DNA of 64,000 nucleotides from Rudanella paleaurantiibacter. Its GTDB lineage: Bacteria > Bacteroidota > Bacteroidia > Cytophagales > Spirosomataceae. Position 1 is the stretch's first letter. Each line of letters begins with the position of its first letter. The DNA lies in NCBI RefSeq assembly GCF_009184635.1, contig NZ_WELI01000005.1, forward strand, positions 620,001 through 684,000, given 5' to 3'. The notes below the pieces were generated by a model. The model was given only the letters and a program-made list of their open reading frames with translations. It made no database searches and was not told the DNA's origin. The position numbers were made by a program, and so were the translations under genes. Shown here piece after piece: positions 12,942-53,285 of the stretch.

Positions 12942-12988
12942 TTTCAAAGAGATGTCATCTCTCTAAACGAGATGACATCTCTTTGAAA
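12942..12988. repeat. GATGACATC-family hairpin, copy 1
   Basis: Perfect 20-bp arms (12942-12961 and 12969-12988) around the 7-nt loop TCTAAAC, 23 nt after the GH88/105 stop and before the next gene on the same strand. The left arm carries GATGTCATC and the right arm GATGACATC, the reverse of copies 2 and 4-6. Confidence 0.92.
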
Positions 12989-13007
12989 AACAAACCCCAA
13001 AATGCTT

Positions 13008-13939
13008 ATGACTTCGGTATCGCGTCGTCGTTTTTTGCAGGCTTCGGCTATTTTGGCAGGCGGGGCTATATTGCCGCCTGCATTCGCCCATGGCACCACA
13101 CCAAAGGCACTTCGGTTGGGAGGCCCGATTTTTCTGAAATCTGACGACCCCGACGAGCTCGCCCGCGAACACCGACGGTTGCAGTACAGCGCTGCCTACG
13201 TACCCAAAGTCGATCTGAGCGACTCGGCCCGGATCCGAGCCATCGAGAAAGCCTTTGCGGCCCAAAACGTAATCATTGCCGAGGTGGGTGCCTGGGTAAA
13301 TATGCTCGATGCAGACCCTCAGAAACGTCAAAAAAACCTTGCGTACGTGACCGAGCGGCTCGCGTTGGCAGAGGCCGTGGGGGCGCTCACCTGTGTTGAT
13401 ATCGCGGGCTCGTTTAACCCCACCGACTGGGCAGGCCCCGACGCTCGAAATCTGTCAAACGAGTTTTTTGAGGCTACCGTTGAAAATTGCCGGAAGGTGA
13501 TCGACGCCGTGAAGCCCAAACGTACCCGATTTGCCCTCGAAATGATGGGCTGGAGCCTGCCCGACAGTGCCGACTCGTACCTGAAATTCATCAAAGCGAT
13601 CGACCGGCTGCTTTTGGAGCGCACATCGACATAGCCAACATCATCAACACACCGGGCCGGTACTACCAGAATACAGCACTGATTAACGATACCTTTCGGA
13701 AGTTGGGCCGCTGGATTGTGTCGGCCCATGCGAAAGATATTGTGGGCAAGGATGGACACTTTGCCGAAACCGCACCGGGCCGAGGAGGTATGGATTACAC
13801 GGCTTACCTCCGCAACGTAACCGCTCTCCCGCAGGCCGTACCGCTCATGCTTGAGCACCTCAGCACGCCCGAAGCCTATGATGAAGCCCGGCAGTTTATG
13901 ATCCGCAAAGCCGCCGAGCTTCAGATTCCGCTGGGGTAG
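13008..13939 (+). pseudogene. Tat-exported sugar phosphate isomerase/epimerase (TIM barrel), frameshifted
   Basis: Xylose-isomerase-like TIM barrel family. The first frame carries a twin-arginine signal (MTSVSRRRFLQASAILAGGA) and the barrel up to FIKAIDR, then degenerates and stops at 13634. The second frame continues the barrel (AFGAHIDIANIINTPGRYYQ, then FRKLGRWIVSAHAKDI, ending at 13939). Adding one C near 13608 turns CGGCTGC into CGGCCTGC and gives the continuous DRPAFGAHIDIAN expected for the family. This is either a genuine recent frameshift or a sequence error. The ATG at 13002 is two codons upstream. Its place beside the GH88/105 gene and the Gfo/Idh/MocA gene suggests sugar processing. 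Confidence 0.8.
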
Positions 13940-13944
13940 CCCCC

Positions 13945-15291
13945 TTACTTCACGTAGCCCAGCGTGCGCGGAATCGTGTAGATTTCGGTCTGCCGCCCGT
14001 CGATGTACCGGAACGATTTACCATCAAATGCGCCATCTTCTTCGAGCATAATCCGAATCGTTTTTCGCCACTCGGGCACGTCGACAGCGGCATTTAGCTC
14101 AATCGAGTAGGCGGTGTTGGGAAACAACGGGTAGTCGCCGGAGCCGGGCACGCCTTTCTGCTGATCCCACATCCCAATGGTTGGGCCAGCCGCATGACCA
14201 TGACTCCCAATCGGGTGGGTGTAAATGGTACCCCGAATGCCTTCTTTCCCGGCCTGCTCCAGGGCTTCGCGCAGAATTTGATTGCCCGATTTGCCCGTTT
14301 GAAACCGCTCGGTCAGGATATCCTGTAACCGGTTACCCTGCCGAAAAGCCTCCCGAATAGCCGCAGGCACCTCCGTTTCACCGGGGCGAAGCACGTAGGC
14401 ATGTTGTTGTTGATCGGTGTTCAGGCGGAGGTACGTGATGCCAAAGTCAACATGCAGCAAATCGCCGGGCATGATGACCTCGCCGGAGGGACGCTTGGCA
14501 AACGTACGGAGATGATCAAACTTGGCGTCGTCGGCCCGCTGAATATCGACTGTCGGGTGAAACCACGTATCGAGTCCCAGTTCTGTGACCCGTTGACGAT
14601 ACCACCACACCACGTCATCGGTGGTGGTGATTCCCGGCTGAATCACTTTTTCGGATAGTCCCTCCTGCACTATTTGATGCGACAACCGGCAGATAAGCGG
14701 GTACACCGCCATTTCTTTTTCGGTGCGGGTTTCGAGCCAGCCTACGGCCAGGCGCTCGGCCGACACAAGCCGCTTTTGCAGATCGGCGGGTAGCTTAGCT
14801 GTAAATTCTTTTTGCTCGGTAAACGTCAGGCCGTCCGCGTGGGCGTAATGCTCGGAAAAGTTCAGGCCGATTTTTTTAGGGTTGCGCTTCTGGATAATAT
14901 CAATGAGGGCATCCCACTGATTAGGCCGCACATCGATGTTCCATTCGCCTTTGAGCAGATTACCCACATCGTAGCGGGCAATGGCGAGCCGTTCTACGTC
15001 TTTCCCATTGTCAAAAAACACCATAATTGTCCGCCGACGCGCCGATAGCCAATTGGCGGGTAGCATGGTCTTAAGCACCGGGTCTTCGTTGTATTCGCGG
15101 GAAATAATCACCCACATATCGATACCCTCCCGGCGCATCAGTGTCGGCAACAGATTCTGAAACCGGTCTTCCAGTACCTCATCCACAAACCGGGCCCGGT
15201 CGCGCTCAGAGAGGATGGCGGTTGGCGTTTGGGCAAAGGAGAAAGCGAAGGAAAACAGGAGAATGAAGGAAAGATAAATGTGTTTAGTCAT
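13945..15291 (-). CDS. secreted M24 family metallopeptidase (Xaa-Pro aminopeptidase-like)
   Basis: Pita-bread fold peptidase with a signal peptide (LLFSFAFSFAQ), so periplasmic or exported. The N-terminal creatinase-like domain (about 20-190) precedes the M24 domain. Likely metal ligands are visible: Asp in DLLHVDFGITY, His in IYTHPIGSHGHAAGP, Glu in YSIELNAAVDVPEW and the last Glu in RIMLEEDGAF. The usual second Asp appears shifted to RLNTDQQQHAY, which contains no DxG, so metal binding may be atypical. ATG at 15291 begins the signal peptide. Length 448 residues. It starts 6 nt after the end of the convergent frameshifted gene. Confidence 0.84.
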   Translation of the reverse strand: MTKHIYLSFILLFSFAFSFAQTPTAILSERDRARFVDEVLEDRFQNLLPTLMRREGIDMWVIISREYNEDPVLKTMLPANWLSARRRTIMVFFDNGKDVERLAIARYDVGNLLKGEWNIDVRPNQWDALIDIIQKRNPKKIGLNFSEHYAHADGLTFTEQKEFTAKLPADLQKRLVSAERLAVGWLETRTEKEMAVYPLICRLSHQIVQEGLSEKVIQPGITTTDDVVWWYRQRVTELGLDTWFHPTVDIQRADDAKFDHLRTFAKRPSGEVIMPGDLLHVDFGITYLRLNTDQQQHAYVLRPGETEVPAAIREAFRQGNRLQDILTERFQTGKSGNQILREALEQAGKEGIRGTIYTHPIGSHGHAAGPTIGMWDQQKGVPGSGDYPLFPNTAYSIELNAAVDVPEWRKTIRIMLEEDGAFDGKSFRYIDGRQTEIYTIPRTLGYVK

Positions 15292-15415
15292 GGTTGTTTC
15301 TGAAGGGGGTGGGTAACATAAGGTGTCCACAAGTCCAAAAATGAATCAGACCGGGCGTATCTCCTACACCGGAGGAACAGTTTTTCGGGAAAGAGAGCAG
15401 ATTACCGCGCTAGGG

Positions 15416-16261
15416 CTACGGGGTAAAGGTTTTTTCGAGCTGCCGCTTAAACAGGCGGGTGTACGATTTGGGCAACAAACGGGTGAGCCAGTCAATAAGC
15501 CGTCCGTCGGCCCCGATTACAATGCGGGTATCGCCCTGCCGTACGCCCGTCCAGATCTGCCGGGCCGCTTCGTCGGGCGAGGTACGGGCCATTTGCTTAA
15601 AGCTTGTAGTGGTTTGCGCGTGCATGGCGTCGGTTACGTAGCCACTTGCTCCCCGCCGGGCCGCTCGGGCAATGTTGGTGTCGATACCGCCCGGATGCAC
15701 GCAGCTAACGCCTACGCCGGTGCCCATCAGCTCCATACGCAGGGTTTCGGTAAAGCCCCGTACCCCAAATTTGGCCGTGCAGTAGGCCGATTGCCCCTGA
15801 ATACCGGCAAAGCCAAACACACTCGACAGGTTGACAAGGTGGCTCCCTCCCCCACCCGATCGGCTTTGTTCGAGCATATACGGCAAAAACGCCCGCGTCA
15901 TCCGAATTACACCAAATAGATTGATGCTCAACAGCCAGTCGAACTCCTCGGCCGATGTTTCGGAAAACGGACCGCTGTTCAGGGCCACGCCCGCGTTGTT
16001 GACCAGAATAAGCGGCCGCCCGGCCAACGTCGGGATTACCCGACTGGCGAAGGCCGGAATAGCGTCGGCATCAGCCACGTCGAGCCGGTGCAGCATCAGG
16101 CCCCCTCCCGCGAGTTGGTTTGTCTCGGCCAGGCCAGCCTCGTTAATATCGGTAGCGATTACCTGCCCCCCGAGTTGGGCCGCTTGAATAGCCAACGAGC
16201 GGCCGATACCCGACGCAGCCCCGGTAATCAGAATTACGGAATTAGTCAGCGAAGACTTCAT
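15416..16261 (-). CDS. SDR family NAD(P)-dependent oxidoreductase
   Basis: Classical short-chain dehydrogenase of 281 residues. Cofactor motif TGAASGIG is at about 14-21, NNAG near 90, the catalytic Ser in NLSSVFGFAG, and the YxxxK pair in YCTAKFGV. The C-terminal extension (DWLTRLLPKSYTRLFKRQLEK) resembles that of the second SDR at 25692-26498, so the two are probably paralogues of the same subfamily. The substrate is unknown. ATG at 16261. Confidence 0.88.
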   Translation of the reverse strand: MKSSLTNSVILITGAASGIGRSLAIQAAQLGGQVIATDINEAGLAETNQLAGGGLMLHRLDVADADAIPAFASRVIPTLAGRPLILVNNAGVALNSGPFSETSAEEFDWLLSINLFGVIRMTRAFLPYMLEQSRSGGGGSHLVNLSSVFGFAGIQGQSAYCTAKFGVRGFTETLRMELMGTGVGVSCVHPGGIDTNIARAARRGASGYVTDAMHAQTTTSFKQMARTSPDEAARQIWTGVRQGDTRIVIGADGRLIDWLTRLLPKSYTRLFKRQLEKTFTP

Positions 16262-16325
16262 TAAGGTCTATTGTGAGGTCAGGAAAAATATGGGAACTAA
16301 CTATTTCGTCAGAAAAAAGAGGAGG

Positions 16326-16832
16326 TTACGCCTGAAACTTTCCATCCTGAAGCGTGTAAACCAGTACGTTGTCATAAGCAGGTTGTACGATCCAGTATTC
16401 TCTGACACCTGCTTCCTCGTAAGCCTCGAACTTTTCCTTCATTTCCTTATTGGTATTACCCTTCGACAGTACTTCAATAACCCAGTCCGGTGCTCCCTTG
16501 CACCCTGCGGTATCCAACTTTGTCGGGTCACTGATAACACATAAATCCGGCTGCGTCACGGTGGCAATTTCCTCGTTTGTTACCTTGTGTTTCCGAGGTA
16601 AGCGTACATCAAAAAGGGTCTGATAAACCCGACATGGCTTTCCACGCAAGTACATCCATGTGTTGCCATGCAAATCACTGACAATTTTTTGATGCCGACG
16701 ATTTGGGGCCGATATTTTCCGGACATACCCCCAAATCAGTTCAACCCGCTCCGAAAACTGCCAGGTCAGGTAATCGGCATAGGTGTATTGCTTGTTGGGA
16801 TCAAGTTGGTCAAGACTGGTAATCGAGGCCAT
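16326..16832 (-). CDS. Uma2 family (PF05685, DUF820) restriction-endonuclease-fold protein
   Basis: A 168-residue member of the PD-(D/E)xK-like Uma2 family, abundant in cyanobacteria and Bacteroidota and of unknown biological role. Visible blocks are YTYADYLTW, ERVELIWGYVRKIS (acidic strand), QPDLCVISDP (conserved PD), GAPDWVIEVLS (E-x-S strand) and KFEAYEEAGVREYWIV. The catalytic core D...E-x-L appears intact in PDWVIEVLSKG. A -7 box lies upstream at 16856-16863. No partner gene suggests a restriction or toxin context. Confidence 0.85.
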   Translation of the reverse strand: MASITSLDQLDPNKQYTYADYLTWQFSERVELIWGYVRKISAPNRRHQKIVSDLHGNTWMYLRGKPCRVYQTLFDVRLPRKHKVTNEEIATVTQPDLCVISDPTKLDTAGCKGAPDWVIEVLSKGNTNKEMKEKFEAYEEAGVREYWIVQPAYDNVLVYTLQDGKFQA

Positions 16833-16855
16833 AACTGAAATTGCTGGTTTACGGT

Positions 16856-16863
16856 CAAAAATA
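16856..16863 (-). promoter_or_regulatory. -7 box of the Uma2-family gene
   Basis: TATTTTTG on the minus strand matches TAnnTTTG and ends 23 nt before the ATG at 16832. No clear -33 TTG. Confidence 0.4.
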
Positions 16864-16934
16864 CAAAAAAACGGGCCGTTTCGACAGGGGCATTCGTACA
16901 GGTATTCGGGCCAAAACGACCTGTAAACAGCTAA

Positions 16935-18599
<1,665 letters not shown>

Positions 18600-18611
18600 A
18601 ATTGAATTAGA

Positions 18612-18676
18612 GCAAACGCCAAAAGCGTCTGGTTCTGGGCCACCCTTGGCCTAAAACCAGACGCTTTTGCGTTTGC
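18612..18676. terminator. long hairpin between convergent genes
   Basis: Arms of about 29 bp with one bulge and a few mismatches (GCAAACGCC..AAGCGTCTGG and CCAGACGCTTTTGCGTTTGC) separate the ABC-F gene from the convergent glycosidase gene. There is no long T-tract, but the position fits a shared bidirectional terminator. Confidence 0.65.
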
Positions 18677-18687
18677 AGGCACGGCCC

Positions 18688-20097
18688 TTACTGCTCTAAC
18701 CAGCCGCCCGTGAAGCCCGCCTTCACCAGCCCCCGTCGGATATGCGGATTCTTCTGCATCAGTTTCCAGATAAAGCCCGAACGCAGGTTTTCGGCCATGA
18801 GCAAAATCGGCCCCTGATCAATGCCGAGATAATCGATGTCGAACCAGCCCTGAGCCGTAGACCCGTTGGCCGACAAAGCCCGGTACCGATACGTCGGGTT
18901 AAAAGCATCGCGAAAGCCGTACGGGCCGTACAGCTTTGAGCCATAGCGGGTTTTCATTGCCCGGAGGGCGGGCAAACAAATTTCGGGTGCAAAGGCCATC
19001 GACCCACCCGCGGCTGTGGGGGCAATGGTGCCGTCGTCTACAATCTGCGTGCTGGCAGCCCCGCGCGCCCGGTACGAAAAGAACTGTCGGCCGTTCACGA
19101 GTGTATCTTTCGGACCGTCGCAGGCGGTAAGCCCCCAAATAGTGGGGCCGTAGTCTTGCCAGCGGGCGGGGTTAGCCATGCAATAAGCCCGGTTGGCGTA
19201 GGTAGCCCGGCGCGAATTTTCAAAGTAATCAATACCCCGCCCCCGCATGTACTCGTCTTTGATACCCCGAAAATCAATCCAGACGTGCGAATACTGATGC
19301 CCAAACAAGGGGTCGAAGTTGACGTGCGGCTGGTCGTAGAACGTAGCCCATGGGTACGATTGGGTCCACGCCCGCCATACGGCTGGCTCTAGCGGATGCG
19401 TGGGCGAGCCCAGCGCCAGTACGTACAACAACATGGCTTCGTTGTAGCCCCGCCAGTCGCTCTTGATAAACCCTGACTCCGGGTGCCAGCCCATCGACAC
19501 GAACTTATCTTTGTTCAAAAACCAGGTCCAATCGGCGCGACCGTAGATAAGATCAGCTAACTGACGGATTTCAGTTTCGGCCGGGGTGTTGCCGTCAAAA
19601 TAGGTTTGCGCGCTCAGAATCCCACCCAACAGCAACGCCGTGTCGATAGTCGATAATTCGACCTGCTTGAAGCGTGCGCCCGTTTTCATATCCAGAAAAT
19701 GGTAGAAAAACCCTTTGTAACCGGCCACGCCTGCCGCCTGTTCGGACTGGGGTGCGTTGGCAAAAAAACGGAGTGTTTGCAGGGTTCGCTCGGCGGCCTG
19801 CGCCCGTGTGATGTACCCCCGCTCCACGCCCACGAGGTACGAGGTCAGGCCGAACCCAACAGCGGCAATGCTGGCAAAGGAGTTGGTGGGGGCTCGGTCG
19901 GACACGAGGCCGTTTTGCGAATTTGTTGTCTCCCAGAAGTACCGAAACGTGTCGCGTTGCAGACTATCCAGAAACGTCGCATCGCTCCCCGACAGGCTAA
20001 ATGCAGGCATGGTCGGGAGCACCGTTTGCGGTCGGGACTGGCAGCGCGCCAACTGAACACAGCCACCCAGAAGGCATAAAATAAGGAGTTGCTTCAT
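18688..20097 (-). CDS. PF10091 (glucoamylase/GH144-like) glycoside hydrolase
   Basis: Secreted (alpha/alpha)6 hydrolase of 469 residues with a signal peptide (LLILCLLGGCVQLARCQ, lipoprotein-like or cleaved). Family blocks are DTFRYFWETTN near the N-terminus, NSFASIAAVGFGL, KGFFYHFLDMKTG, GWHPESGFIKSDWRGYNEAM, HQYSHVWIDFRG and WGLTACDGPKD. Characterised members of this Bacteroidota family act on beta-1,2-glucans (GH144), so sophoro-oligosaccharide release is the leading inference. It is the last gene of a SusC-SusD-hydrolase unit on the minus strand, with a GATGACATC hairpin in the 232-nt gap after SusD. No beta-glucosidase is adjacent. Confidence 0.82.
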   Translation of the reverse strand: MKQLLILCLLGGCVQLARCQSRPQTVLPTMPAFSLSGSDATFLDSLQRDTFRYFWETTNSQNGLVSDRAPTNSFASIAAVGFGLTSYLVGVERGYITRAQAAERTLQTLRFFANAPQSEQAAGVAGYKGFFYHFLDMKTGARFKQVELSTIDTALLLGGILSAQTYFDGNTPAETEIRQLADLIYGRADWTWFLNKDKFVSMGWHPESGFIKSDWRGYNEAMLLYVLALGSPTHPLEPAVWRAWTQSYPWATFYDQPHVNFDPLFGHQYSHVWIDFRGIKDEYMRGRGIDYFENSRRATYANRAYCMANPARWQDYGPTIWGLTACDGPKDTLVNGRQFFSYRARGAASTQIVDDGTIAPTAAGGSMAFAPEICLPALRAMKTRYGSKLYGPYGFRDAFNPTYRYRALSANGSTAQGWFDIDYLGIDQGPILLMAENLRSGFIWKLMQKNPHIRRGLVKAGFTGGWLEQ

Positions 20098-20139
20098 GAA
20101 AGAAAGGTATAAAGCCAGCTGTCAGCCGACTATAAAGCA

Positions 20140-20176
20140 CAGAGATGACATTTCGCTTGGAGAAATGTCATCTCTG
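20140..20176. repeat. GATGACATC-family hairpin, copy 2
   Basis: Perfect 15-bp arms (20140-20154, 20162-20176) and 7-nt loop GCTTGGA, between the SusD stop and the glycosidase start. The arm pair ATTTC/GAAAT differs from the other copies on both sides, preserving pairing. Confidence 0.92.
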
Positions 20177-20329
20177 CTAAGATAACGTGAGTTATAGGAA
20201 ATTACCGACGCGTAGGCCTTCGATAGCAAAATCTGTACTACAGACAGTTACAATCCATATCACCCCCAACTCACGTTAAAATAACAAGTTGAATAAAACT
20301 CAAGCTAAAAACTAAGAACCAGGCCCATC

Positions 20330-21829: not shown

Positions 21830-21842
21830 CTGCGTTGTTTAC

Positions 21843-28174: not shown

Positions 28175-28207
28175 GCGATGTCGTCTTATTCAGAAAGATG
28201 ACATCGC
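28175..28207. repeat. GATGACATC-family hairpin, copy 3
   Basis: Arms GCGATGTCGTCTT and AAGATGACATCGC (13 bp, one G-T wobble) around the 7-nt loop ATTCAGA, 21 nt after the monooxygenase stop. Confidence 0.85.
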
Positions 28208-28257: not shown

Positions 28258-28292
28258 AGAGATGACATCTTGTTTGGAAAGATGTCATCTCT
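28258..28292. repeat. GATGACATC-family hairpin, copy 4
   Basis: Perfect 14-bp arms and loop GTTTGGA. The 35-nt unit is identical to copy 5 at 53178. It lies 24 nt beyond the esterase stop. Confidence 0.93.
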
Positions 28293-41744: not shown

Positions 41745-41895
41745 AGTAAGTAATCAAGCAGAATTAAACTGAAGTATTTGGAATAGATGCTTTTGTCATC
41801 CCGACACAGGAGGGATCTTTCTAATTGACTGACTGTAAGATCCCTCCTGCGTCGGGATGACAAACCAAAGTTTAAACTAATTCTGCTTGACTACT
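41745..41895. repeat. nested inverted repeat, element A
   Basis: Outer arms AGTAATCAAGCAGAATTA and the complementary TAATTCTGCTTGACTACT (41878-41896 region) enclose an inner hairpin with arms TTGTCATCCCGACACAGGAG and CTCCTGCGTCGGGATGACAA, plus GGGATCTT/AAGATCCC. No coding frame. Confidence 0.85.
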
Positions 41896-42618: not shown

Positions 42619-42655
42619 CCCCTAACGATAGTACTTACTTTCATATTAGTAATGT

Positions 42656-42691: not shown

Positions 42692-42731
42692 GTACACGCT
42701 TAACAAGATGGCTATGCTTTCAAACAACTCG

Positions 42732-43835: not shown

Positions 43836-43855
43836 GGCAGGTGGGTTTAGGTACC

Positions 43856-44034
43856 GCACTCCCTGTCAGTGCTCAAAGACCCTGACAGTGGAGTGCGGTG
43901 ACTAGAAGGTACTGACAAGGAGGATTACCTTGTCTGGATGTTTCATTACTGACGAACTCTGCAACCACTGACAGGGTTTGTTAGGACCGCGAAGTCTACA
44001 ACCACTGACAGGGTCTTTGACCACTGTCAGGGTT
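43856..44034. repeat. cluster of CTGACAG repeats
   Basis: CAACCACTGACAGGGT occurs at 43962-43977 and 43999-44014, with an inverted-type copy ACCACTGTCAGGGT at 44021-44034. A separate imperfect palindrome, GCACTCCCTGTCAG against CTGACAGTGGAGTGC, covers 43856-43896. No coding frame; it sits between two minus-strand genes. Confidence 0.8.
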
Positions 44035-44058
44035 TGCGGTGTGGTCACCCAAAACTAT

Positions 44059-46656
44059 CTACACCGTAACGGCTTTCGGCTTACGAAAACTCAGGAACAC
44101 AGCGAGTGCGATAAAGGCAATCAGCAACCCGTTGAAAACGGCATCGAGCGTGTCGCCAAGGGCCACAACGGGCGGCTCAAACTTAAACTCGATAGTGTGC
44201 TTACCAGCTGGCACGCGCATAGCACGTAATACGTAGTTAGCGCGCAGGTGCGGCACCTTTTTCCCGTCGATGTACGCATTCCAGTCGGTATCGCCCCGGT
44301 AATAGATCTCCGAAAATACGGCCAACTGTTCGGTGGGGGCGTTGCTTTCGTAGGTCAGATGGTCGGGAATATAGTTGGTCAGGCGGATGGTAGCCCCGGT
44401 TGGGTCGAGGGTGGGCAGGCCATTGAGCTGATCAGCAAACCGCTTGTCGACCACCACCGAATCGCGGGGGTTGAGTGTCTGTACGGCGGCCATTTCAGCA
44501 TCGGCATCGGGTACCTGCACAACGGTCCGCACGAACCACGCATTGCCCAGGGCTTCGGGGTTCGGCTGGGCAACCGGTGCCGAAGGCTGTTGCTGCGGGT
44601 TAGCCGGGTCAGGCTGAGGTTGCATAATGGCATACTTGCCATTGAGCATATTCAGGATATTGAGCGTATTTTTCGGAAAAGCGTATTCAATTAGTTCCTG
44701 ATAACGGCGCAGCTTGGCCGCATGGTACCCCCCAATGGATTTGTGGAAAAACGACGTCCGGTTGTCGTTCATAAAGCTCCCGGTCTGATCCCACACCCGG
44801 TAGCTGAGCGATTTGTCTCCTAAAATCTGGGCATCGGCGGGAGTTTCCTCAAAAGCTGAGTTCACCTGCGTTTTTGGAATAAAGTTGCCGTTGTTCAGGA
44901 ATCGCTTATCGACCATAAACAAATCGAACACCATCAGGGCCAGCAGCAGGGGAAAAAACACCCCGGCTTTCAGCTTCTTCAGCGCAAAGCCGTAGATGGC
45001 AGCAGCCGCCAGCAAAATGAAAATAACCGAACGGAACCCGTCGGCCCGAGCCATGCTCTGACGGTCGCTGATAAGGGCGCGCTGCATGTCGGTCGCCATA
45101 GCCTGATCGCCGAAGTACTGCATCAGCACCGGGATATCGTTGGCCGTCTGGAACGAGAAGAACACACCGCCCAGCAGCGCCAGCACCAGCGCCAGACCCG
45201 CCGTAAGCCCAACGCTGATGGCCAGTGGCTTTTTCAGTTGCTCGGCACTCAGGTTGCGGCTCACGATGGCATGAATCCCCAGCACAGCCCCACCCGCAAA
45301 AAACAACTGCGCCAGCCCCATGGTCATCGTAACAGCCCGGAACTTGTTGAACAGCGGAAAATAATCAAACAGCGGCCCGTTGATCACCAGCAGGTTTTTA
45401 CCCATCGCAATGGCAATCATAAACAAGGCACCTACCAACAGATACCACCGAATACGGTGTGTGGAGAGGGTCAGGCCCAGCAAAAACAAAAACAGCAGCA
45501 CGGCACCGGCATACGACGGCCCGCCCACGCCCGGCTGATCACCCCAGTACGTGGGAGCACCCAGCTCGACAAACTGCCGGGCTGCACCGGGGTCAACACC
45601 TTTGTTGACCAGGGCCTTGTAAAACTCAGAACCCTCGTCGAGGCCACCGCCCGAGCCGCCCCCGAAGAAATTCGGGATGAGCAGGTTGAGTGCTTCGGCC
45701 TTGCCGTAACTCCAGTTGAACGCATAGTCTTTATCGAGTCCGTCTTTGCTACCCGCGGCCGGTGCTGCAGCCGCGGCCGGTGCCGCTGCATCAGCGGTTT
45801 GGGCGGTTGTTTTGGCAGTCAGTTCCGAACGTCCCCGGATGGTTTCTTTCTGGTACTGGTTCAGCACAAGCAATCGCTTGCTGAAACTTGCGGCCCCCAA
45901 GCCCCCGGCTACGGCCAGAAAAGCCAGGCCCACAGCCAGTTGCTTCGCCTTACCCATCCGAACAAGGGCAATGCCTTCCATCAACACATAAATGGCTACC
46001 AGGATAAAGAGGTAATACGTGATCTGAAGGTGATTGGCATTCAGCTCCATACAAGCGAAGAAGGCCGTCAGGGCCGCCCCCGCCCAGTACTTACCCCGGA
46101 GTGTCTGAATTACCCCCGCCAGCACACCTGGCGCGTAGGCCATGGCCCACACTTTTGACACGTGTCCCGCTTCGACGGTCAGCATGAGGTAGGTACCAAA
46201 CGCATACGCTACAGCGCCGGTAGCTGCCAGCCAACGCCGGGCCGCGGGCTTGTCGGGACTGGCGTCGTCGGGATCGGTGCGTCCAATCACGAGCAGGAGC
46301 AGGTACATGCTCACCATCGTGACGAACAGGAGGTTCACGGGCCGGGGAATGAGATTGAGCACCGACTCGACCGTGCGCCCTACAAACGTATAGGGATAAT
46401 CGAAAGCGATCATGTAGGCGGGCATACCGCTGAAGAGGGCGTTGGTCCAAAGCGGAAACTCACCGGTTTGCTTTTTGAACTCACGCAACTCAATGGTTGA
46501 TGCGTAGCTCTGCCGGATATCCTGCATGGGCAGCTCTTTGCCCTGAAACGCCGGAACAAAATAAATACCGGCTAAGACCAGAAAGCCCAGCACAAACAAT
46601 AGATGCGGGCGCAACCGACTTAGACTCGGCCGCTCTAAGGGGGAATTTTGATTCAT
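44059..46656 (-). CDS. YfhO family membrane protein
   Basis: Large polytopic protein of 865 residues with about 13 hydrophobic segments and a C-terminal beta-rich domain. The opening FVLGFLVLAGIYFVPAFQGK, QDIRQSYASTIELREFKKQT and the segment GEFPLWTNALFSGMPAYM are YfhO hallmarks. YfhO is required for glycosylation of lipoteichoic acid in Firmicutes; in Bacteroidota its substrate is undefined. A Pro/Ala/Gln-rich linker (DPANPQQQPSAPVAQP) occurs near the end. ATG 46656 is favoured because a -7 box lies just upstream at 46678-46685, inside the longer frame that begins at 46749. Confidence 0.88.
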   Translation of the reverse strand: MNQNSPLERPSLSRLRPHLLFVLGFLVLAGIYFVPAFQGKELPMQDIRQSYASTIELREFKKQTGEFPLWTNALFSGMPAYMIAFDYPYTFVGRTVESVLNLIPRPVNLLFVTMVSMYLLLLVIGRTDPDDASPDKPAARRWLAATGAVAYAFGTYLMLTVEAGHVSKVWAMAYAPGVLAGVIQTLRGKYWAGAALTAFFACMELNANHLQITYYLFILVAIYVLMEGIALVRMGKAKQLAVGLAFLAVAGGLGAASFSKRLLVLNQYQKETIRGRSELTAKTTAQTADAAAPAAAAAPAAGSKDGLDKDYAFNWSYGKAEALNLLIPNFFGGGSGGGLDEGSEFYKALVNKGVDPGAARQFVELGAPTYWGDQPGVGGPSYAGAVLLFLFLLGLTLSTHRIRWYLLVGALFMIAIAMGKNLLVINGPLFDYFPLFNKFRAVTMTMGLAQLFFAGGAVLGIHAIVSRNLSAEQLKKPLAISVGLTAGLALVLALLGGVFFSFQTANDIPVLMQYFGDQAMATDMQRALISDRQSMARADGFRSVIFILLAAAAIYGFALKKLKAGVFFPLLLALMVFDLFMVDKRFLNNGNFIPKTQVNSAFEETPADAQILGDKSLSYRVWDQTGSFMNDNRTSFFHKSIGGYHAAKLRRYQELIEYAFPKNTLNILNMLNGKYAIMQPQPDPANPQQQPSAPVAQPNPEALGNAWFVRTVVQVPDADAEMAAVQTLNPRDSVVVDKRFADQLNGLPTLDPTGATIRLTNYIPDHLTYESNAPTEQLAVFSEIYYRGDTDWNAYIDGKKVPHLRANYVLRAMRVPAGKHTIEFKFEPPVVALGDTLDAVFNGLLIAFIALAVFLSFRKPKAVTV

Positions 46657-46677
46657 AGATCCAATTGGCAATGAGGG

Positions 46678-46685
46678 CAAAGATA
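46678..46685 (-). promoter_or_regulatory. -7 box of the YfhO-like gene
   Basis: TATCTTTG on the minus strand ends 21 nt before ATG 46656, which decides between it and the start at 46749. Confidence 0.5.
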
Positions 46686-47030
46686 GGGAAGGTTTTGGTC
46701 TCCTGAGATTGCCCCTACACAGTTGACAACGTAACCGGTAGCTCAACAACTATTTTTCCTGCTCCGCCCAGCCCAGTTTATATAGATATGTGGGCAAGCG
46801 ACGATGTAGCTGCGTTTTCGTGGGCTCACTTCCACTAAACAATACCCTCTACGTAACCGCTTGTTGGCCTAACGTACTCATTCTGATTGACGGACAATTA
46901 CGCAACATAAATTACAGCAACCGTTTACATAGAAATACCCTTTTCCTGGTATACAAACCAAAAAGAATGTGGTTATTAGCGCCCTGTTTGCATGTAAAGC
47001 TCACTTTCTATCCTCACACTTATCCTTCCC
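46686..47030. other. intergenic region between divergent genes
   Basis: About 345 bases with no convincing gene, hairpin or repeat. Short frames here have no family features. Confidence 0.5.
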
Positions 47031-47855
47031 ATGATCAACCAAACGCTCCGGCGCAGCCGCTCCCTTTTAAAAAAGGCGTATCAGCAGACCCTCGATACGG
47101 GCGAGCGACTTCTGGGTCTGCGCGATGCCCTTACCCCGCCCCGCTCCATGATTTTTGTGGGAGCCGGCGACTACAAAGAGGTTGGCGAACATTTTCGTAC
47201 CCTGTTTATTGAGCTGGGGGGCCTCAAACCAACTGATCAGGTACTCGATATTGGCTGTGGCATTGGCCGCATGGCCGTTCCGCTGGTCAACTACCTCGCC
47301 CCGACTGCCCGCTACGAAGGCTTCGACATTGTAAAGTCGGGAATCGACTGGTGTCAGCAGCACATTACCCCACGCTACCCGAACTTCCGGTTTCAGCTGG
47401 CCGATGTGTACAACAGTCATTACCAGCCCACCGGCCGCTACCCGGCTACCGAGTACCAATTTCCGTTTCCCGACGCACAGTTCGATTTTATCTTTCTGAC
47501 TTCCGTGTTTACGCACATGCCCAAGCCGGAGCTGGAAAATTACATCGGGCAAATTGGGCGGGTGCTCAAACCGGGCGGGCGGTGCCTGGCTACATTCTTT
47601 CTGCTCGACGAGGAGTCGCGCCGACTTATGCCCTCGCCCCGAAGCCGGTACAACCTGCAATACGAACTGGATGGGCGATACGTAGCCGATCTGAGCGATC
47701 CCGACATCTGTACGGGTTTCGACAAACAGTACGTGCTCGATTTACTGCAACAAAAAGGCTTTAACCCGGCCCCGGCCTTTTACCCCGGCACCTGGTGCGG
47801 TCGGCTCGAAGGCAAGTCGTTTCAGGATATTCTGGTTTTTCAAAAACCCGCCTGA
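47031..47855 (+). CDS. class I SAM-dependent methyltransferase
   Basis: A 274-residue methyltransferase. Motif I is VLDIGCGIGRMAVPL, with motif II-like YEGFDIVKSGIDW, the acidic strand FDFIFLTSVFTHM and the post-IV region RVLKPGGRCLATFFLL. An N-terminal amphipathic basic helix (LRRSRSLLKKAYQQTLD) could bind membrane or nucleic acid. The substrate is unknown. A long hairpin follows the stop. Confidence 0.88.
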   Translation: MINQTLRRSRSLLKKAYQQTLDTGERLLGLRDALTPPRSMIFVGAGDYKEVGEHFRTLFIELGGLKPTDQVLDIGCGIGRMAVPLVNYLAPTARYEGFDIVKSGIDWCQQHITPRYPNFRFQLADVYNSHYQPTGRYPATEYQFPFPDAQFDFIFLTSVFTHMPKPELENYIGQIGRVLKPGGRCLATFFLLDEESRRLMPSPRSRYNLQYELDGRYVADLSDPDICTGFDKQYVLDLLQQKGFNPAPAFYPGTWCGRLEGKSFQDILVFQKPA

Positions 47856-47874
47856 TCATCCCCCTCCTACCTTA

Positions 47875-47931
47875 GGCCCCGGCCCTCGTTTTAGCTTCCG
47901 TTTTATACGGAGCTGAGTGAGGCCGGGGCTT
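47875..47931 (+). terminator. long stem-loop after the methyltransferase gene
   Basis: GGCCCCGGCC and GGCCGGGGC arms enclose a second pair (AGCTTCCG / CGGAGCT) to form a two-step stem. No long T-tract, so termination is likely but not certain. Confidence 0.55.
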
Positions 47932-47980
47932 AATCTATTGATTTAGAAGACAAAGCAAGTCGACACATTCCGTTCGTCTA

Positions 47981-47988
47981 TACATTTG
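47981..47988 (+). promoter_or_regulatory. -7 box upstream of the GLPGLI gene
   Basis: TACATTTG fits TAnnTTTG, 86 nt before ATG 48075. No -33 TTG at the right distance. Confidence 0.35.
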
Positions 47989-48074
47989 GGGCATTCATCG
48001 ATGTTTGGGCGGCATTTCGGGTCTGCGTATAAGCATCCGTGCAACTTTCGAGCGCAATTCTGTTTCTTTGGCGT

Positions 48075-48926
48075 ATGAAAAAAATACACGCTTTTTTACC
48101 CCTTGCAGCCTTTCTGCTGACCCAGACGGTAACGGCACAAGACGCCATCACGTCGGGCGAAATTCGGTACGAAGCCACCCGCCGGATCGACCTTTCGCAA
48201 GTGCGGGTCAATATCAATGGCCAGGAGGTGCGGCCGGGTGGCACCTTGCCCAACGGTCAGACCTTCGATATGCCGCAAACAACCACCTACGGCCAATCGC
48301 TGCTGTTTTCGGGCGATATGGCGATGGAAAAACGAGACGCCCCGGCCATGATGATGCGCAGTATGCGCGTGGGTGGCCCCGAAGGACCCGGCGGAGCAGC
48401 TGGCGGTGACCGTGGCCCCGACAACCGACCCATGCGCAACCGGCAGTTTACGCCCCCTTTCGATAACAGCACGTACATCGATATGTCGTCGCAAACGATG
48501 ATTACGGTGTTGAGCGTGAAAAAAGACTCGGTCACGACGGAGCATTATCGTAACGATGAGCCCATCACCCGCGACTCTACCTGGCGCGAAGACGATAAGA
48601 CCAAGAAGCTGCTGGGCTATAAATGCAAGCGTGCAACGGCCAATATTCGCAATACACCCTATACCATCTGGTACACCACCGAGATTCCGCTGACGTACTC
48701 GCCCGTGGCCCGGCTGACGCCCGACAAAGGTGTAGTGCTCCAGATCGAGAGCGACCAGGAAGCCTTTAAAGCCACTAAAATTGAGTCTAAGGCCATCGAA
48801 GCAGCCACGCTACGGCCCAATGCCAAAGCACAGCTGGTATCGAAAAAACAGATGGAAGAAATCCGGCGGAAATCGATGGCCAGTTTCCGGCAACGCATGA
48901 TGGCCGAAAACCCCATGCGGAATTAA
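48075..48926 (+). CDS. GLPGLI family secreted protein
   Basis: 283 residues with signal peptide (LPLAAFLLTQTVTAQ). It contains the family blocks GEIRYEATRRIDL and KKLLGYKCKRATANIRNTPYTIW, followed by the stretch YTTEIPLTYSPVARL, where the GLPGLI-type motif has become less conserved. A Gly/Pro/Arg-rich segment (GGPEGPGGAAGGDRG) splits the first half. GLPGLI proteins typically sit beside TonB-dependent receptors, as here: the receptor starts 12 nt downstream. Their shared job is unknown, with metal or peptide handling proposed. ATG 48075 begins the signal peptide. Confidence 0.85.
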   Translation: MKKIHAFLPLAAFLLTQTVTAQDAITSGEIRYEATRRIDLSQVRVNINGQEVRPGGTLPNGQTFDMPQTTTYGQSLLFSGDMAMEKRDAPAMMMRSMRVGGPEGPGGAAGGDRGPDNRPMRNRQFTPPFDNSTYIDMSSQTMITVLSVKKDSVTTEHYRNDEPITRDSTWREDDKTKKLLGYKCKRATANIRNTPYTIWYTTEIPLTYSPVARLTPDKGVVLQIESDQEAFKATKIESKAIEAATLRPNAKAQLVSKKQMEEIRRKSMASFRQRMMAENPMRN

Positions 48927-48938
48927 GCCCTCTTTTTT

Positions 48939-51848
48939 ATGCGCCTACTCCTACTTTTCACTATTCTACTGGCTTCCCTTTCCTCCTTCGCGCAGAACCG
49001 AGGTATTGGCACCATTCGGGCCTCGGTTCTGGACTCGACCACCAAACAGGGCCTGCCCGAAGCAACCGTTTCGCTACTTCGCGGACGCGATTCGTCGCTG
49101 GTTACGTTTCAGGTGACCGGGGGCGAGGGCGAATTTATGTTTCGCAACGTGGCTGAAGGCCCCTATCAGCTTCTGATTACGTATGTAGGTTACCAGACGC
49201 TCCGGCGCAATGTGACCATCACCGCGGCCGAGCCCACCCCTAATCTGGGGCCGTTGTACATGGCTACGGAAGCCAAATCGCTCAACGAAGTCACGGTGCA
49301 GGGTGCGCCGGTTGTGATCAAAGGCGACACGCTCGAGTTCAACGCCGGGTCGTTTAAAACCCAGCCCAACGCCGTGGTCGAAGACCTGATCAAGAAACTA
49401 CCCGGCATGGAGGTAGAACGCGACGGGACCGTAAAAGCACAGGGGCAGGAAGTAAAACGGATTCTGGTAGATGGCAAGCCATTTTTTGGCAACGACCCCA
49501 AAATGGCCACCCGCAACCTGCCCGCCGAGATGATTGATAAGGTTCAATTGTACGACCGGCAGTCGGAGCAGTCGCAGTTTTCGGGGGTTGATGATGGCGA
49601 CCGCGAGAAAACCATCAACATCACCACCAAGCGCGACCGGCGCAAGGGCGTGTTTGGGCGGCAATCGCTCGGAATGGGTCAGGAGCCGCCCAGCGGACCT
49701 ACCCGCTACCAAGGTCAGGTAGGAATTAACCGCTTCGACAACGGGCAGCAGCTATCCGTTATCGGGTCGGCCAACAACATCAATCAGCAGAATTTTTCGG
49801 CCGAAGGGCTGGGAAATGGCGGGGGACTGGGTGGTTTTGGCGGGGGTAACAACTTCGGTGGAGGAGGCATGGGCGGCAACGGTGGCAACCGGGGTGGTCA
49901 GGGTGGTAATAGCGGAGGCAATTCGGGCCTGCCTACAGGACAGCAAACGAACCTGACCCGCGCCATTTCGGGGGGTCTTAATTTCTCCGACGGCCTGACT
50001 TCCAAAGTTGATTTCAGCGCCAGCTATTTCTACAACAATACCCGCACCATAACCGAGCAGACGTCACGGCGCGAGAATATTCTGCCGAGTGCGGCCCTGC
50101 GCGGTGCACCCTACCCCGATTCGACGAACATCACCAACCGGCAGTCATCGTCGGTCAGCACGTTTGGCAATCACCGGGTCAATGCCCAACTGATTTGGCG
50201 AATCGACAGCATGAATACGCTGCGCGTGATTCCTAACCTCGTGTTCTCCGACAACGTGTCGAACAGCCTGAGCGACTCGCGCACGGCCTCGAACCGGGGT
50301 ACTCCGCTCAATAGTAGCCTCACCAATTACGACGCCAACGGGCGGGGAGTATCCGGAACCAATACGTTGCTCTGGACGCACAAATTTAAGCGCCGGGGCC
50401 GCACGTTTTCGGCCAACCTCAACACCACGCTCAACTCGCAGGTTACCAATGGCTTCAATCGCTCGAAAAACGAGTATTTTCAGTCGATTACAAACATTCC
50501 GCTGTCAAGTTCGATCACGGGTGGGGGCTCGCTGACGGGGGTTGGTGGCTTATTTGCGGCCAATATCAACCAGCGCAACGAGCAACAGACTGACGCCATG
50601 ACCAGCAACCTCAACCTCTCGTACACCGAGCCGTTGTCGTTGGCGAAAACCCTTGAGTTTCGGTATAATCTGAACACCAACGACAATTCCTCAGACCGGC
50701 AGGTGTTCGACTTCGACGAGCGGGTCAACGCTTATACCTTACCCAACGAACGGCTGACCAACCGGTTCGACAATATTTTCCGCACCCAACGGGCGGGGGT
50801 GTCATTGCAAACCCGGCGGTTGAAATACAATTATACCTTTGGGTTCGATGTGCAGGATGCCAACCTTCAGACCAACAACATCTCGCGCGATATTGAACTG
50901 ACCCGGTATTACCTCAACCTGTTGCCCAACGCCCTGTTTACGTACAACGTGTCGCGCAATCAGCGATTGATGATCAACTACCGGAGCCGGATTCAGCCAC
51001 CCTCGGTCAATCAGTTGCAGCCGGTGCTCAACAATAGCAACCCGCTCAATATTCAGACCGGCAACCCCGACCTGAAACCGGAGTTTGCCAACACGTTGAA
51101 TATCAACTATAACAACTTCGACCCGACGACTTTCCGCTCGTTGTTTGCGTCGATCAACGTAAATCAGATTAACCGCCGGATTGTGAATGCCACCGCTTTT
51201 AACAGCGCCGGTGGTCAGGTAACCAAACCGGTCAACGCCGACGGGTATTACTCAATCACGGGCTTCCTGAATCTGGGTCGTTCCATTGACTGGAGCGGAC
51301 AGCGCGTAAACCTGAGCTGGGCTACCAACGGCAGTTTTGTGAATAACATCAGTTTCGTAAACGACCAATTGAACAAGGGCCGGAACCTGAGCGTGGGGCA
51401 GCGTGTGAGCATCAACACGTTCTGGAAAGACAAGCTCGACCTGAACCTTTCAGGCAATGTCAGCTACCAGTCGGCACAATACTCCCTACAGCCGCAACAG
51501 AACAGCAACTTCCTGTTTACGTCGCTTAACGCCTTTGTTTTCTACCAGTTGCCGGGCCGGTTTACCCTGACTTCCGACTTCAGCTACAATGCTAACTCGG
51601 GCCGGGCTGCCGGGTTCAACCAGCGGTTTGCACTCTGGAACGTGGGCGTAGCCAAACAGTTGTTTAAGCAGAAGCAAGGTGAGTTGCGCCTGTCGGTCTA
51701 CGACTTGCTGAACCAGAACCGGAGCATTATCCGCAACGTAAATGACACGTACATCGAAGACGTACAGAGCCTGGTGTTGCGCCGGTACGTGATGCTCACC
51801 TTCACGTACAACCTCCGCAAGTTCGGTATGACCTCGACCCGGCGATAA
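48939..51848 (+). CDS. TonB-dependent receptor with Gly-rich insertion
   Basis: Outer-membrane receptor of 969 residues with a signal peptide (LLLFTILLASLSSFAQ), a carboxypeptidase-regulatory-like domain (IRASVLDSTTKQGLPEATVSLL) and plug motifs GDTLEFNAGSFKTQPNAVVE and LPGMEVERDGTVKAQGQEV. The barrel ends VMLTFTYNLRKFG. Around residues 286-330 is an extraordinary Gly/Asn run (GGGLGGFGGGNNFGGGGMGG) between the plug and the barrel. This subgroup lacks the SusC-type N-terminal extension. It is cotranscribed with the GLPGLI gene (12-nt gap). Confidence 0.93.
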   Translation: MRLLLLFTILLASLSSFAQNRGIGTIRASVLDSTTKQGLPEATVSLLRGRDSSLVTFQVTGGEGEFMFRNVAEGPYQLLITYVGYQTLRRNVTITAAEPTPNLGPLYMATEAKSLNEVTVQGAPVVIKGDTLEFNAGSFKTQPNAVVEDLIKKLPGMEVERDGTVKAQGQEVKRILVDGKPFFGNDPKMATRNLPAEMIDKVQLYDRQSEQSQFSGVDDGDREKTINITTKRDRRKGVFGRQSLGMGQEPPSGPTRYQGQVGINRFDNGQQLSVIGSANNINQQNFSAEGLGNGGGLGGFGGGNNFGGGGMGGNGGNRGGQGGNSGGNSGLPTGQQTNLTRAISGGLNFSDGLTSKVDFSASYFYNNTRTITEQTSRRENILPSAALRGAPYPDSTNITNRQSSSVSTFGNHRVNAQLIWRIDSMNTLRVIPNLVFSDNVSNSLSDSRTASNRGTPLNSSLTNYDANGRGVSGTNTLLWTHKFKRRGRTFSANLNTTLNSQVTNGFNRSKNEYFQSITNIPLSSSITGGGSLTGVGGLFAANINQRNEQQTDAMTSNLNLSYTEPLSLAKTLEFRYNLNTNDNSSDRQVFDFDERVNAYTLPNERLTNRFDNIFRTQRAGVSLQTRRLKYNYTFGFDVQDANLQTNNISRDIELTRYYLNLLPNALFTYNVSRNQRLMINYRSRIQPPSVNQLQPVLNNSNPLNIQTGNPDLKPEFANTLNINYNNFDPTTFRSLFASINVNQINRRIVNATAFNSAGGQVTKPVNADGYYSITGFLNLGRSIDWSGQRVNLSWATNGSFVNNISFVNDQLNKGRNLSVGQRVSINTFWKDKLDLNLSGNVSYQSAQYSLQPQQNSNFLFTSLNAFVFYQLPGRFTLTSDFSYNANSGRAAGFNQRFALWNVGVAKQLFKQKQGELRLSVYDLLNQNRSIIRNVNDTYIEDVQSLVLRRYVMLTFTYNLRKFGMTSTRR

Positions 51849-51851
51849 GCC

Positions 51852-52241
51852 TCAGCGCGCGGCAAACGATATAGTTTGCCCACCCGAGCTCAGCACTAAT
51901 TCGTTGGTGCTGAGCTTTTTTATTTGCCAGTCAACACCTACGGTTAATGCAGACAGGGCACAGTTAACCAATGCACATTGTGGGTCAGGGGTTTGAGGCC
52001 ATAAAAAGCGCACAATTGTCCTGGTCGATGTAAAGGTAGCTGGCGAGCAACACCAGGCAGGCCGTTTGTCGGGGCCATACAACAGTGTGCCGTCGCGCCG
52101 GAACTCCACGACCACCGGATAAGGCACGGGCTGTCCGCTGGCTGTCTGCGTCCAGGTGCGGAATAGCAACTCTGGTCTAACGTCTTCTTCTTGCCGACAA
52201 CCCAACAAGCCTATCAACAGAAGTATCAGAATCTTTTTCAT
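51852..52241 (-). CDS. lipoprotein of unknown function
   Basis: 129 residues with a lipoprotein signal (ILILLLIGLLGC, lipobox LLGC). The body is lipocalin-like: LLFRTWTQTASGQPVPY, VVVEFRRDGTLLYG, and the end LSTNELVLSSGGQTISFAAR. Four Cys (CC near 66, later two) may form disulphides. The last 30 codons carry the hairpin that acts as terminator for the convergent receptor gene (51888-51922). ATG 52241 starts the signal; the frame continues to 52274. No function assigned. Confidence 0.75.
   Translation of the reverse strand: MKKILILLLIGLLGCRQEEDVRPELLFRTWTQTASGQPVPYPVVVEFRRDGTLLYGPDKRPAWCCSPATFTSTRTIVRFLWPQTPDPQCALVNCALSALTVGVDWQIKKLSTNELVLSSGGQTISFAAR
51888..51922 (+). terminator. terminator of the TonB receptor gene, embedded in a coding region
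   Basis: AGCTCAGCAC and GTGCTGAGCT, perfect 10-bp arms and a T-tract, lie inside the antisense lipoprotein gene (codons for LSTNELVLSS). Confidence 0.85.
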
Positions 52242-52313
52242 CACGTTTGGATCAGAAATGATGCGTTTAGCCATAGACCCTTAAACTACCCTGACGGTTG
52301 GAACGAAACTGAG

Positions 52314-52321
52314 TAAATTTG
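52314..52321 (+). promoter_or_regulatory. -7 box of the MBL hydrolase gene
   Basis: TAAATTTG, 72 nt before ATG 52394. A TTG at 52298-52300 lies too close (13 nt) for a -33. Confidence 0.35.
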
Positions 52322-52393
52322 TCTGTACATACCCACGGCCGGAACGTCGACCTTGCCGCCGGGGTTGTATACTAAAGCCCCCGACAACTGCTA

Positions 52394-53170
52394 ATGTCCT
52401 TATTTATTTCTTCCCTGAACTCGGGCAGCAATGGCAACTGCTATTACGTTGGTAATCATCAGGAAGCCGTACTCATCGACGCCGGTATTTCGTGCCGCGA
52501 AACCGAACGGCGCATGGATCGGCTGGGCCTGTCGATGAAGACGGTGAAAGCCATTTTTATTTCACACGAGCATTCAGACCATATTGTCGGCGTCGACCGC
52601 CTGGCCCGTAAGTACAAGCTGCCGGTGTACATTACGCCCGGTACCCTGCGCAACACCCGCCTGTCGGAGTCGGCCATTACGTTTCAGCCCTTGCGTGGGT
52701 ACGAGCCGGTCCTAGTTGGCGACTTGTCTGTAACGGCTTTTCCAAAGCAACACGATGCGGCCGACCCGCACAGCTTTCTGGTCAGTTTTGGGGGCATCAA
52801 CGTGGGCGTGTTCACCGACATAGGTACGCCCTGCACACACGTAATCGATCATTTTAAGCAGTGCCATGCCGCCTTTCTGGAGGCCAATTACGACGATGAC
52901 CTACTGGCTCTGGGCCGGTACCCTTACTTCCTGAAACAACGTATTTCGGGCGACAACGGACACTTATCCAATCGGCAGGCGCTCGACCTGTTTCTGAACC
53001 ACCGGCCGGTGCACATGAGCCATCTGTTACTGGCCCACCTCTCGCGCGACAACAACAGCCCACAGGTAGTGGCCAATCTCTTTGCTCCTCACCTCGCTCA
53101 CACGCAATTGGTAGTGGCGTCACGCTACGCCGAAACGGCTGTTTACCAAGTCAGTGGAGTGATGAAATAG
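52394..53170 (+). CDS. MBL-fold metallo-hydrolase (WalJ/YycJ-like)
   Basis: A 258-residue cytoplasmic metallo-beta-lactamase-fold nuclease-like protein. The metal site starts ISHEHSDHIVGV (HxHxDH). Further blocks are LNSGSNGNCYYVG (N-terminal SNGN motif typical of YycJ), FLEANYDDDLL, ISGDNGHLSNRQAL and HLSRDNNSPQ. In Firmicutes WalJ affects coordination of DNA replication and cell wall control; in Bacteroidota its role is not established. It has its own -7 box and ends before a pair of GATGACATC hairpins. Confidence 0.9.
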   Translation: MSLFISSLNSGSNGNCYYVGNHQEAVLIDAGISCRETERRMDRLGLSMKTVKAIFISHEHSDHIVGVDRLARKYKLPVYITPGTLRNTRLSESAITFQPLRGYEPVLVGDLSVTAFPKQHDAADPHSFLVSFGGINVGVFTDIGTPCTHVIDHFKQCHAAFLEANYDDDLLALGRYPYFLKQRISGDNGHLSNRQALDLFLNHRPVHMSHLLLAHLSRDNNSPQVVANLFAPHLAHTQLVVASRYAETAVYQVSGVMK

Positions 53171-53177
53171 CAAAAAA

Positions 53178-53212
53178 AGAGATGACATCTTGTTTGGAAA
53201 GATGTCATCTCT
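53178..53212. repeat. GATGACATC-family hairpin, copy 5
   Basis: Perfect 14-bp arms and loop GTTTGGA, 8 nt after the MBL gene stop. It is identical over 35 nt to copy 4, 25 kb away. Confidence 0.93.
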
Positions 53213-53250
53213 GGTGCCGCACAAGTCAGCCCGGTGCTGAAGAACAAAAA

Positions 53251-53285
53251 AGAGATGACATCTCTCGAAACGAGATGTCATCTCT
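53251..53285. repeat. GATGACATC-family hairpin, copy 6
   Basis: Perfect 14-bp arms and loop TCGAAAC, 38 nt after copy 5 and 21 nt before the stop of the convergent gene. The closing pairs are C-G where copies 4 and 5 have T-A. Confidence 0.92.

Follow-up and report, generated by a model that had tools for sequence, protein, structure and literature searches.

The stretch of DNA analysed here, referred to as the window, comprises 64,000 nucleotides of the Rudanella paleaurantiibacter genome (contig NZ_WELI01000005.1, positions 620,001 to 684,000 of the forward strand) and carries six copies of a hairpin with near-palindromic arms. Orthologous sites were compared with those of a sister species (genome G001), which is about 88 percent identical across the window. 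The six copies are the following:

12942 to 12988, no strand assigned: copy 1, with 20-bp arms, loop TCTAAAC and a T-centred left arm; pairing continues 8 bp past the 11-bp core arm.
20140 to 20176, no strand assigned: copy 2, with 15-bp arms carrying the CATTTC variant (compensated) and loop GCTTGGA, for which the sister species has the inverted orientation.
28175 to 28207, no strand assigned: copy 3, degenerate, with 13-bp arms, one G opposite T, and loop ATTCAGA.
28258 to 28292, no strand assigned: copy 4, with 14-bp arms and loop GTTTGGA; the sister species has the exact inversion (TCCAAAC).
53178 to 53212, no strand assigned: copy 5, with 14-bp arms and loop GTTTGGA; in the sister species its stem has one change, which is compensated.
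53251 to 53285, no strand assigned: copy 6, with 14-bp arms and loop TCGAAAC; one arm mismatch in the sister-species copy.

The sequence-only reading of this DNA had described six hairpins at these positions with a loop of exactly 7 nt, and all of them were recovered as described. It had also given arms of 13-20 bp, and the pairing is perfect in copies 1, 2, 4, 5 and 6; copy 3, with its G opposite T, is imperfect as DNA. The motif AGATGWCATCT, with at most one mismatch, occurs at 12 sites in the window versus 0.38 expected from shuffled sequences, and 11 of the 12 are arms of the six hairpins. The location of all six after gene ends was likewise upheld; copy 2 has co-directional genes on either side and follows a stop codon at a distance of about 150 nt. 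The window gave no Rfam match at gathering scores.

Concerning the whole genome, a strict paired pattern identified 31 copies, while its reversed-pattern control identified none. Since this pattern also permitted A-A and T-T centres, complementarity was not imposed; nevertheless, the central A and T of opposite arms are complementary in all 31 copies (16 A-T and 15 T-A), in agreement with what had been noticed in the window. The shorter GATGWCATC is present at 162 sites (22 for the reversed control), 62 of them inside the 31 strict pairs. A covariance model built from 22 distinct hand-chosen sequences (20 from this genome and two from the sister species) gave at least 112 matches among the 150 of 2455 candidates that were scored, both strands counted, which correspond to at least 58 distinct places and include all six window copies. 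The sequence-only reading had pointed to a REP- or terminator-like family, and this search found many copies genome-wide rather than few. Changes on both sides were found at 5 of the 12 stem pairs of the 22 chosen sequences, a level reached in 0 of 500 shuffles. The arm centres are about 20 bp apart in this genome, and pairing extends at least 8 bp past the 11-bp arm, and up to 25 bp, in 7/31 own, 14/32 sister and 9/117 other copies. The hairpin also has a branched form, into which a CGGGGCCGCCCGGCG mini-stem is inserted; this form matched seven times in this genome and four times in G001.

The genomic context was analysed for 33 own copies, namely the 31 strict ones and two degenerate window copies, with genes taken from a simple open reading frame (ORF) caller. 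Sixteen lie in convergent gaps, 15 in co-directional gaps, one in a divergent gap and one within a called ORF, while the intergenic background (184 kb of this genome) comprises 3632 convergent, 7797 co-directional and 5202 divergent bases. Of the 31 copies in convergent or co-directional gaps, 22 have a stop codon within 60 nt. The sister genome shows 13 convergent, 13 co-directional and one divergent copy, plus five within called ORFs. Regarding the terminator-like function that had been proposed, a T-rich tail on at least one strand accompanies 14/31 own copies and 3 percent of random positions, but only 5/32 sister copies and 32/117 of the others. The T-rich run that follows an intrinsic terminator is thus not family-wide; terminator use is possible for some copies and is no trait of the family as a whole.

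The hairpin is not restricted to Rudanella. A contig scan listed at least 93 stretches carrying it, from several Bacteroidota groups, Ignavibacteria, Melioribacteraceae and Marinimicrobia, with rare exceptions among the stretches listed, such as one actinobacterial contig. The strict pattern was found in 10 of 395 genomes sampled evenly across the phylum, this genome included, which indicates a patchy distribution. Flavobacterium sp. SUN052 carries many copies, and their loop is of the same GTTTRGA type as in this genome, which suggests a horizontal spread of the hairpin.

Three of the stretches from the hairpin scan (L035, L082 and L114) contain, between hairpins, a gene resembling the REP-associated tyrosine transposases (RAYTs), where REP stands for repetitive extragenic palindrome. 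A profile built from these three found three RAYT-like genes in the R. paleaurantiibacter genome. One of them, at locus L126 (1492-2097), is intact, encodes 201 aa and has hairpins on both sides: strict copies are located about 140 bp upstream (1319-1349) and about 90 bp downstream (2183-2213), and a compensated hairpin variant and the branched form with the CGGGGCCGCCCGGCG mini-stem (2102-2150; this form is also present at L182, L183 and L008) lie nearby as well. One RAYT-linked copy retains the hairpin and has lost the arm palindromy through a paired change (AGCTGTCATCT/AGATGACAGCT). The other two own RAYT-like genes have no GATGACATC pair; one of them (L127) is flanked by a different repeat (CGCTCAACCACTGCCAG...) at 1358-1410 and 2164-2216.

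Outside this genome, in several cases in distant relatives, RAYT-like genes flanked by GATGACATC pairs were found at L035, L082, L114, L199, L200 and L205, often within about 25 bp, and also at L247, L250 and L251, which come from 20 further genomes chosen for their hairpins. Some of these pairs are direct rather than inverted (L114 and L251). The remaining RAYT loci of both locus sets examined showed no GATGACATC pair, L210 having two unpaired 9-mers. By genome, a flanked RAYT was present in 3 of 13 hairpin-positive genomes (G000, G151 and G297) and in 3 of the 20 further ones (G412, G415 and G416). The genomes of L035, L082 and L114 were excluded from the 20 because a flanked RAYT was already known there, and two genomes without one are common to both sets according to their hairpin contig coordinates (G155/G408 with L055, and G348/G405 with L108). 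G297 carries the RAYT-like gene and its flanking hairpins twice (L200 and L205), as an 837-bp segment that is 96.7 percent identical between copies, with a stop within the profile match in both. At L250, a GATGTCATC hairpin (1690-1719) is located inside the RAYT-like open frame, between the HUH and tyrosine motifs, and leaves the frame unbroken.

To place these proteins, a first tree was built after removal of eight fragments or duplicates (L205, L207, L218, L221 and L223-L226), and a final tree of 49 proteins after removal of four additional rows shorter than 130 aa (L200, L268, L274 and L275). In the final tree a single clade of 11 (support 90/93) holds all eight GATGACATC-flanked RAYTs. Its three remaining members are L248 and L249, with two-sided hairpins of other sequence, and L260, where none was found. 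Two-sided matching hairpins of many different sequences are present at 21 of the 50 RAYT loci. Among the RAYT-flanking hairpins, arm palindromy is significant in the seven GATG rows (p 0.004-0.047) and in 6 of the 14 with other motifs (p<=0.05 each, uncorrected). As palindromic arms are thus found with other motifs too, each arm is interpreted as a single mini-REP, two of which would make up the hairpin as a compact doublet.

The L126 protein presents the motifs NHVH, FQ and YIHCNP, its relatives mostly NHFH and YIHxNP. The family NF047646 (REP-associated tyrosine transposase) gave below-cut-off matches in all six proteins scanned. When an AlphaFold model of the L035 protein was compared with PDB folds, 4er8 ranked first, the structure of a RAYT in complex with a REP hairpin; searching PDB by sequence with the RAYT profile yielded nothing. 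PF01797 was discarded as a finder of the cognate gene, its two over-threshold matches in this genome not being the hairpin-flanked gene.

Several features are shared with REPs and REPINs (inverted REP doublets forming hairpins) and their RAYT, TnpA_REP: tens of short palindromic copies outside genes, an arrangement as inverted doublets, a flanked RAYT-like HUH/Y1 gene and a patchy distribution. On the other hand, the doublet is compressed here into one hairpin of 31-35 nt, its core is unchanged across phyla, and the GT[AG]G/GGAG tetranucleotide found at the 5' foot of REPs is not conserved: directly before AGATG, on either strand, it is present in only 4/31 own and 1/32 sister copies. Given this result, the family is not classed as a canonical REP despite its REPIN-like arrangement. 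A further comparison is with TnpA_Y1 subclass 2.6 of Quentin et al. 2018 (Bertels group 5), whose Bacteroidetes genes are described, in the available part of PMC6006769, as flanked by atypical, non-GTAG structures. As far as that description allows a comparison, both occur in Bacteroidetes, have an SS motif after the core and carry at their flanks non-GTAG structures that recur at other places in the genome; the published motif patterns (NH[LIV]H, WQ, YIH[QN]NP) are matched only partially, with FQ for WQ and YIHxNP. Furthermore, the accessible sections of Di Nocera et al. 2013 (PMC3733652) describe TIRtrons, in which a RAYT-like gene (TIRYT) is flanked by terminal inverted repeats, some of them self-complementary, with dispersed families as here. 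The motif GGGGWSAS is present, according to the same sections, in a majority of TIRtrons and not in all; of the 10 flanked genes examined here, only L114 has it within 300 bp, once on each side (at L251 only 56 bp downstream were covered). The helix-turn-helix (HTH)-like C-terminal domain described there for TIRYT has no counterpart among the Pfam matches of 12 RAYT-like proteins scanned (three at E<=0.001 and nine at E<=0.1), which include no HTH family.

The comparison with the sister species bears on how the hairpins change. G001 has a hairpin at 24 of the 31 strict own sites and none at five, and two (L142 and L143) could not be placed. The occupied sites include four imperfect ones (the branched form at L004, and a mismatch at L009, L012 and window copy 6) and a less certain one (L148). 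Loop orientation was compared in 24 orthologous pairs, of which three have no comparable hairpin; among the other 21, 10 show an inverted loop and 11 the same loop, one of the latter (W_11400) being marginal. An automatic comparison gave seven inverted, nine same and 11 without a similar hairpin for the family; it missed several pairs and had the family hairpins L194 and L196 among its controls, and the 21-pair comparison is preferred for the family. Stems also changed between species. At L001, L003 and L007 the outer stems differ yet are still paired; a single paired change is seen at L010, and the stem extension of L012 is without any. At L011 (L162 in the sister species), the left arm of the sister hairpin reproduces, exactly and in reverse complement, a right flank common to both species, and the own sequence does not have that arm, which fits one arm having been copied from the other.

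As controls, 14 non-family hairpins of the window were compared: three have no ortholog, three no sister hairpin, two a changed loop that could not be classed, three an inverted loop (56461, 61836 and 61926) and three the same loop (33481 and 42656, both after gene ends, and 16700, which lies inside an ORF and is a weak control). The first of the inverted ones is a hairpin at 56456-56538 with 39-nt arms, 90 percent pairing and a 15-nt loop that is exactly inverted in the sister species. The other two, at 61836-61859 and 61926-61950, are CCCCCTCCTG hairpins, both with exactly inverted loops, and they are perhaps another repeat family. A 28-bp hairpin, TTTGTCATCCCGACACAGGAGGGATCTT, at 41792-41864 has no similar hairpin at the sister site and may be a separate REP-like repeat.

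Changes of this kind have been described elsewhere. According to the available text of PMC8604942, template switching in yeast produces arm homogenisation and spacer inversion, and that of PMC8794818 reports paired changes and loop inversions by template switching in rRNA genes. Paired multi-base changes, arm homogenisation and loop inversion with intact stems are common to those reports and the present family; here they affect about half of the comparable orthologous copies and belong to a bacterial repeat family. Since loop inversions and arm copying match this published signature, most of the covariation can be attributed, with moderate confidence, to template switching during replication, although the wholesale symmetric replacement of stem segments at L001, L003 and L007 is not fully explained by it. 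The sequence-only reading had taken covariation as an argument for a selected structure. The excess of paired changes is real, as the shuffles indicate, but loop inversion and symmetric stem rewriting make it weak evidence for selection.

Taken together, it is probable that these hairpins are compact REPIN-like repeats, cognate to a clade of RAYT-like HUH/Y1 transposases, with paired changes arising from template switching. The observed basis consists of the sequence, the copy number, the preference for gene 3' ends, the flanking of RAYT-like genes, their clade and the conservation of most sites with the sister species. Each hairpin would consist of two inverted near-palindromes of 9-11 nt, (A)GATGWCATC(T), usually 9 nt apart in this genome, an arrangement that would account for the near-palindromic arms. 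By analogy with TnpA_REP and its REPs, the RAYT could nick the hairpin and move it as single-stranded DNA. Template switching between arms at replication would then homogenise the arms, lengthen the stems and flip the loops, and copies could be retained at gene ends owing to tolerance there and occasional terminator use. The REP-like nature that had been suggested from the window is supported by the many copies, nearly all of those examined being extragenic, and by the flanked RAYT-like gene of this genome. The accompanying remark that no known element explains the hairpins needs to be divided: the kind of element is known, but no description of the particular family was found among the papers listed for these sequences and for this RAYT type in Bacteroidetes.

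Several results weigh against this interpretation. Only 6 of the 31 distinct hairpin-bearing genomes searched, several of them metagenome assemblies, have a GATGACATC-flanked RAYT; the sister species, with 32 strict copies and a 6.3-Mb main contig, has no cognate RAYT; the copy-rich Flavobacterium sp. SUN052 (L038) has no RAYT match at all; and RAYT-like genes are present in 10 of 40 hairpin-negative genomes too. A strict one-to-one co-occurrence of hairpin and RAYT was rejected on these grounds (6/31 and 10/40), and the hairpins may outlive their transposase. Moreover, exclusive monophyly of the eight flanked RAYTs was marginally rejected (p-AU 0.0445), none of the 12 RAYT-like proteins scanned reached the cut-off of PF01797, their matches being weak or lacking, and the AlphaFold model is of modest confidence (pLDDT 57, three sequences). 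Four other hairpins kept their loop orientation (16700, 33481, 42656 and one in L020). Finally, no clean empty-versus-filled site was found among the own sites compared with the sister species. At L014 and at the L126 RAYT locus the species differ by more than the hairpin alone; for 12 sister loci without an own match, six own stretches were compared, L171 and L175 aligning across the site and the rest not at all or only at the edge; and in a third species (G002), considered as a polarising outgroup, the hairpin sites could not be aligned with the own ones. With no clean empty site, and with the sister species carrying a hairpin at 24 of the 31 strict sites, no recent movement is demonstrated.

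Among other explanations, the family could consist of bidirectional intrinsic terminators that are under selection at gene ends for their RNA hairpin and have no functional link to a transposase, which is possible though rather unlikely. It would agree with the 31 of 33 own copies in convergent or co-directional gaps, 22 of 31 within 60 nt of a stop codon, and with the T-rich tails of 14/31 own copies against a 3 percent background. However, the tails are found in only 5/32 sister and 32/117 other copies, the two comparable non-family gene-end hairpins (33481 and 42656) keep their loop orientation, and one arm sequence common across phyla together with the flanking of one RAYT clade is unexpected for unrelated terminators. 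The near-palindromic arms, with centres about 20 bp apart in this genome, could also be sites at which a dimeric protein binds duplex DNA, with about two helical turns from one site to the other. This is improbable: such sites have no need for pairing 8 bp or more past the arm (7/31 own, 14/32 sister and 9/117 other copies), the copies are located at gene ends and not upstream of genes, and the RAYT-linked copy AGCTGTCATCT/AGATGACAGCT keeps the hairpin while losing arm palindromy by a paired change.

In Neisseria or Pasteurellaceae, DNA uptake signals double as terminators when paired, and the inverted pairs at gene ends look like paired uptake sequences. An uptake signal is expected to show a large excess of single sites, whereas only 162 GATGWCATC sites exist (reversed control 22), 62 of them in the 31 strict pairs; with a single-site count this low, an uptake sequence was rejected as extremely improbable. 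The inversions themselves could be attributed to the RAYT, which would flip loops and rewrite arms by hairpin excision, re-insertion and fold-back synthesis in place of replication template switching. TnpA_REP can cut and rejoin REP sequences, as stated in the available part of PMC6006769, and this family and three other hairpins flip while four others do not. Nevertheless, this seems unlikely, as the sister species has no cognate RAYT and template switching alone gives such changes in yeast and in rRNA genes, according to the accessible text of PMC8604942 and PMC8794818.

Beyond the interpretation as compact REPIN-like repeats, it is conceivable, if doubtful, that RAYT-linked doublet hairpins are self-correcting mobile DNA, in which an active, hairpin-specific process flips the loop and copies an arm together with neighbouring unique sequence. 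RAYT-assisted fold-back synthesis or very frequent template switching could be that process, and perfect pairing would then be kept and extended by the chemistry of the element and not by selection on RNA.

Under the REPIN-like interpretation, a clade of RAYT-like genes from Bacteroidota and neighbouring groups gains a cognate repeat, the core of which is conserved across phyla although the associated proteins are only about 37 percent identical. This clade is possibly the group credited, in the available part of PMC6006769, only with 'atypical secondary structures'. These findings also call for caution with hairpin covariation in bacteria, since arm-to-arm copying yields paired changes, and the inversion of loops between orthologous copies offers a simple test for it.

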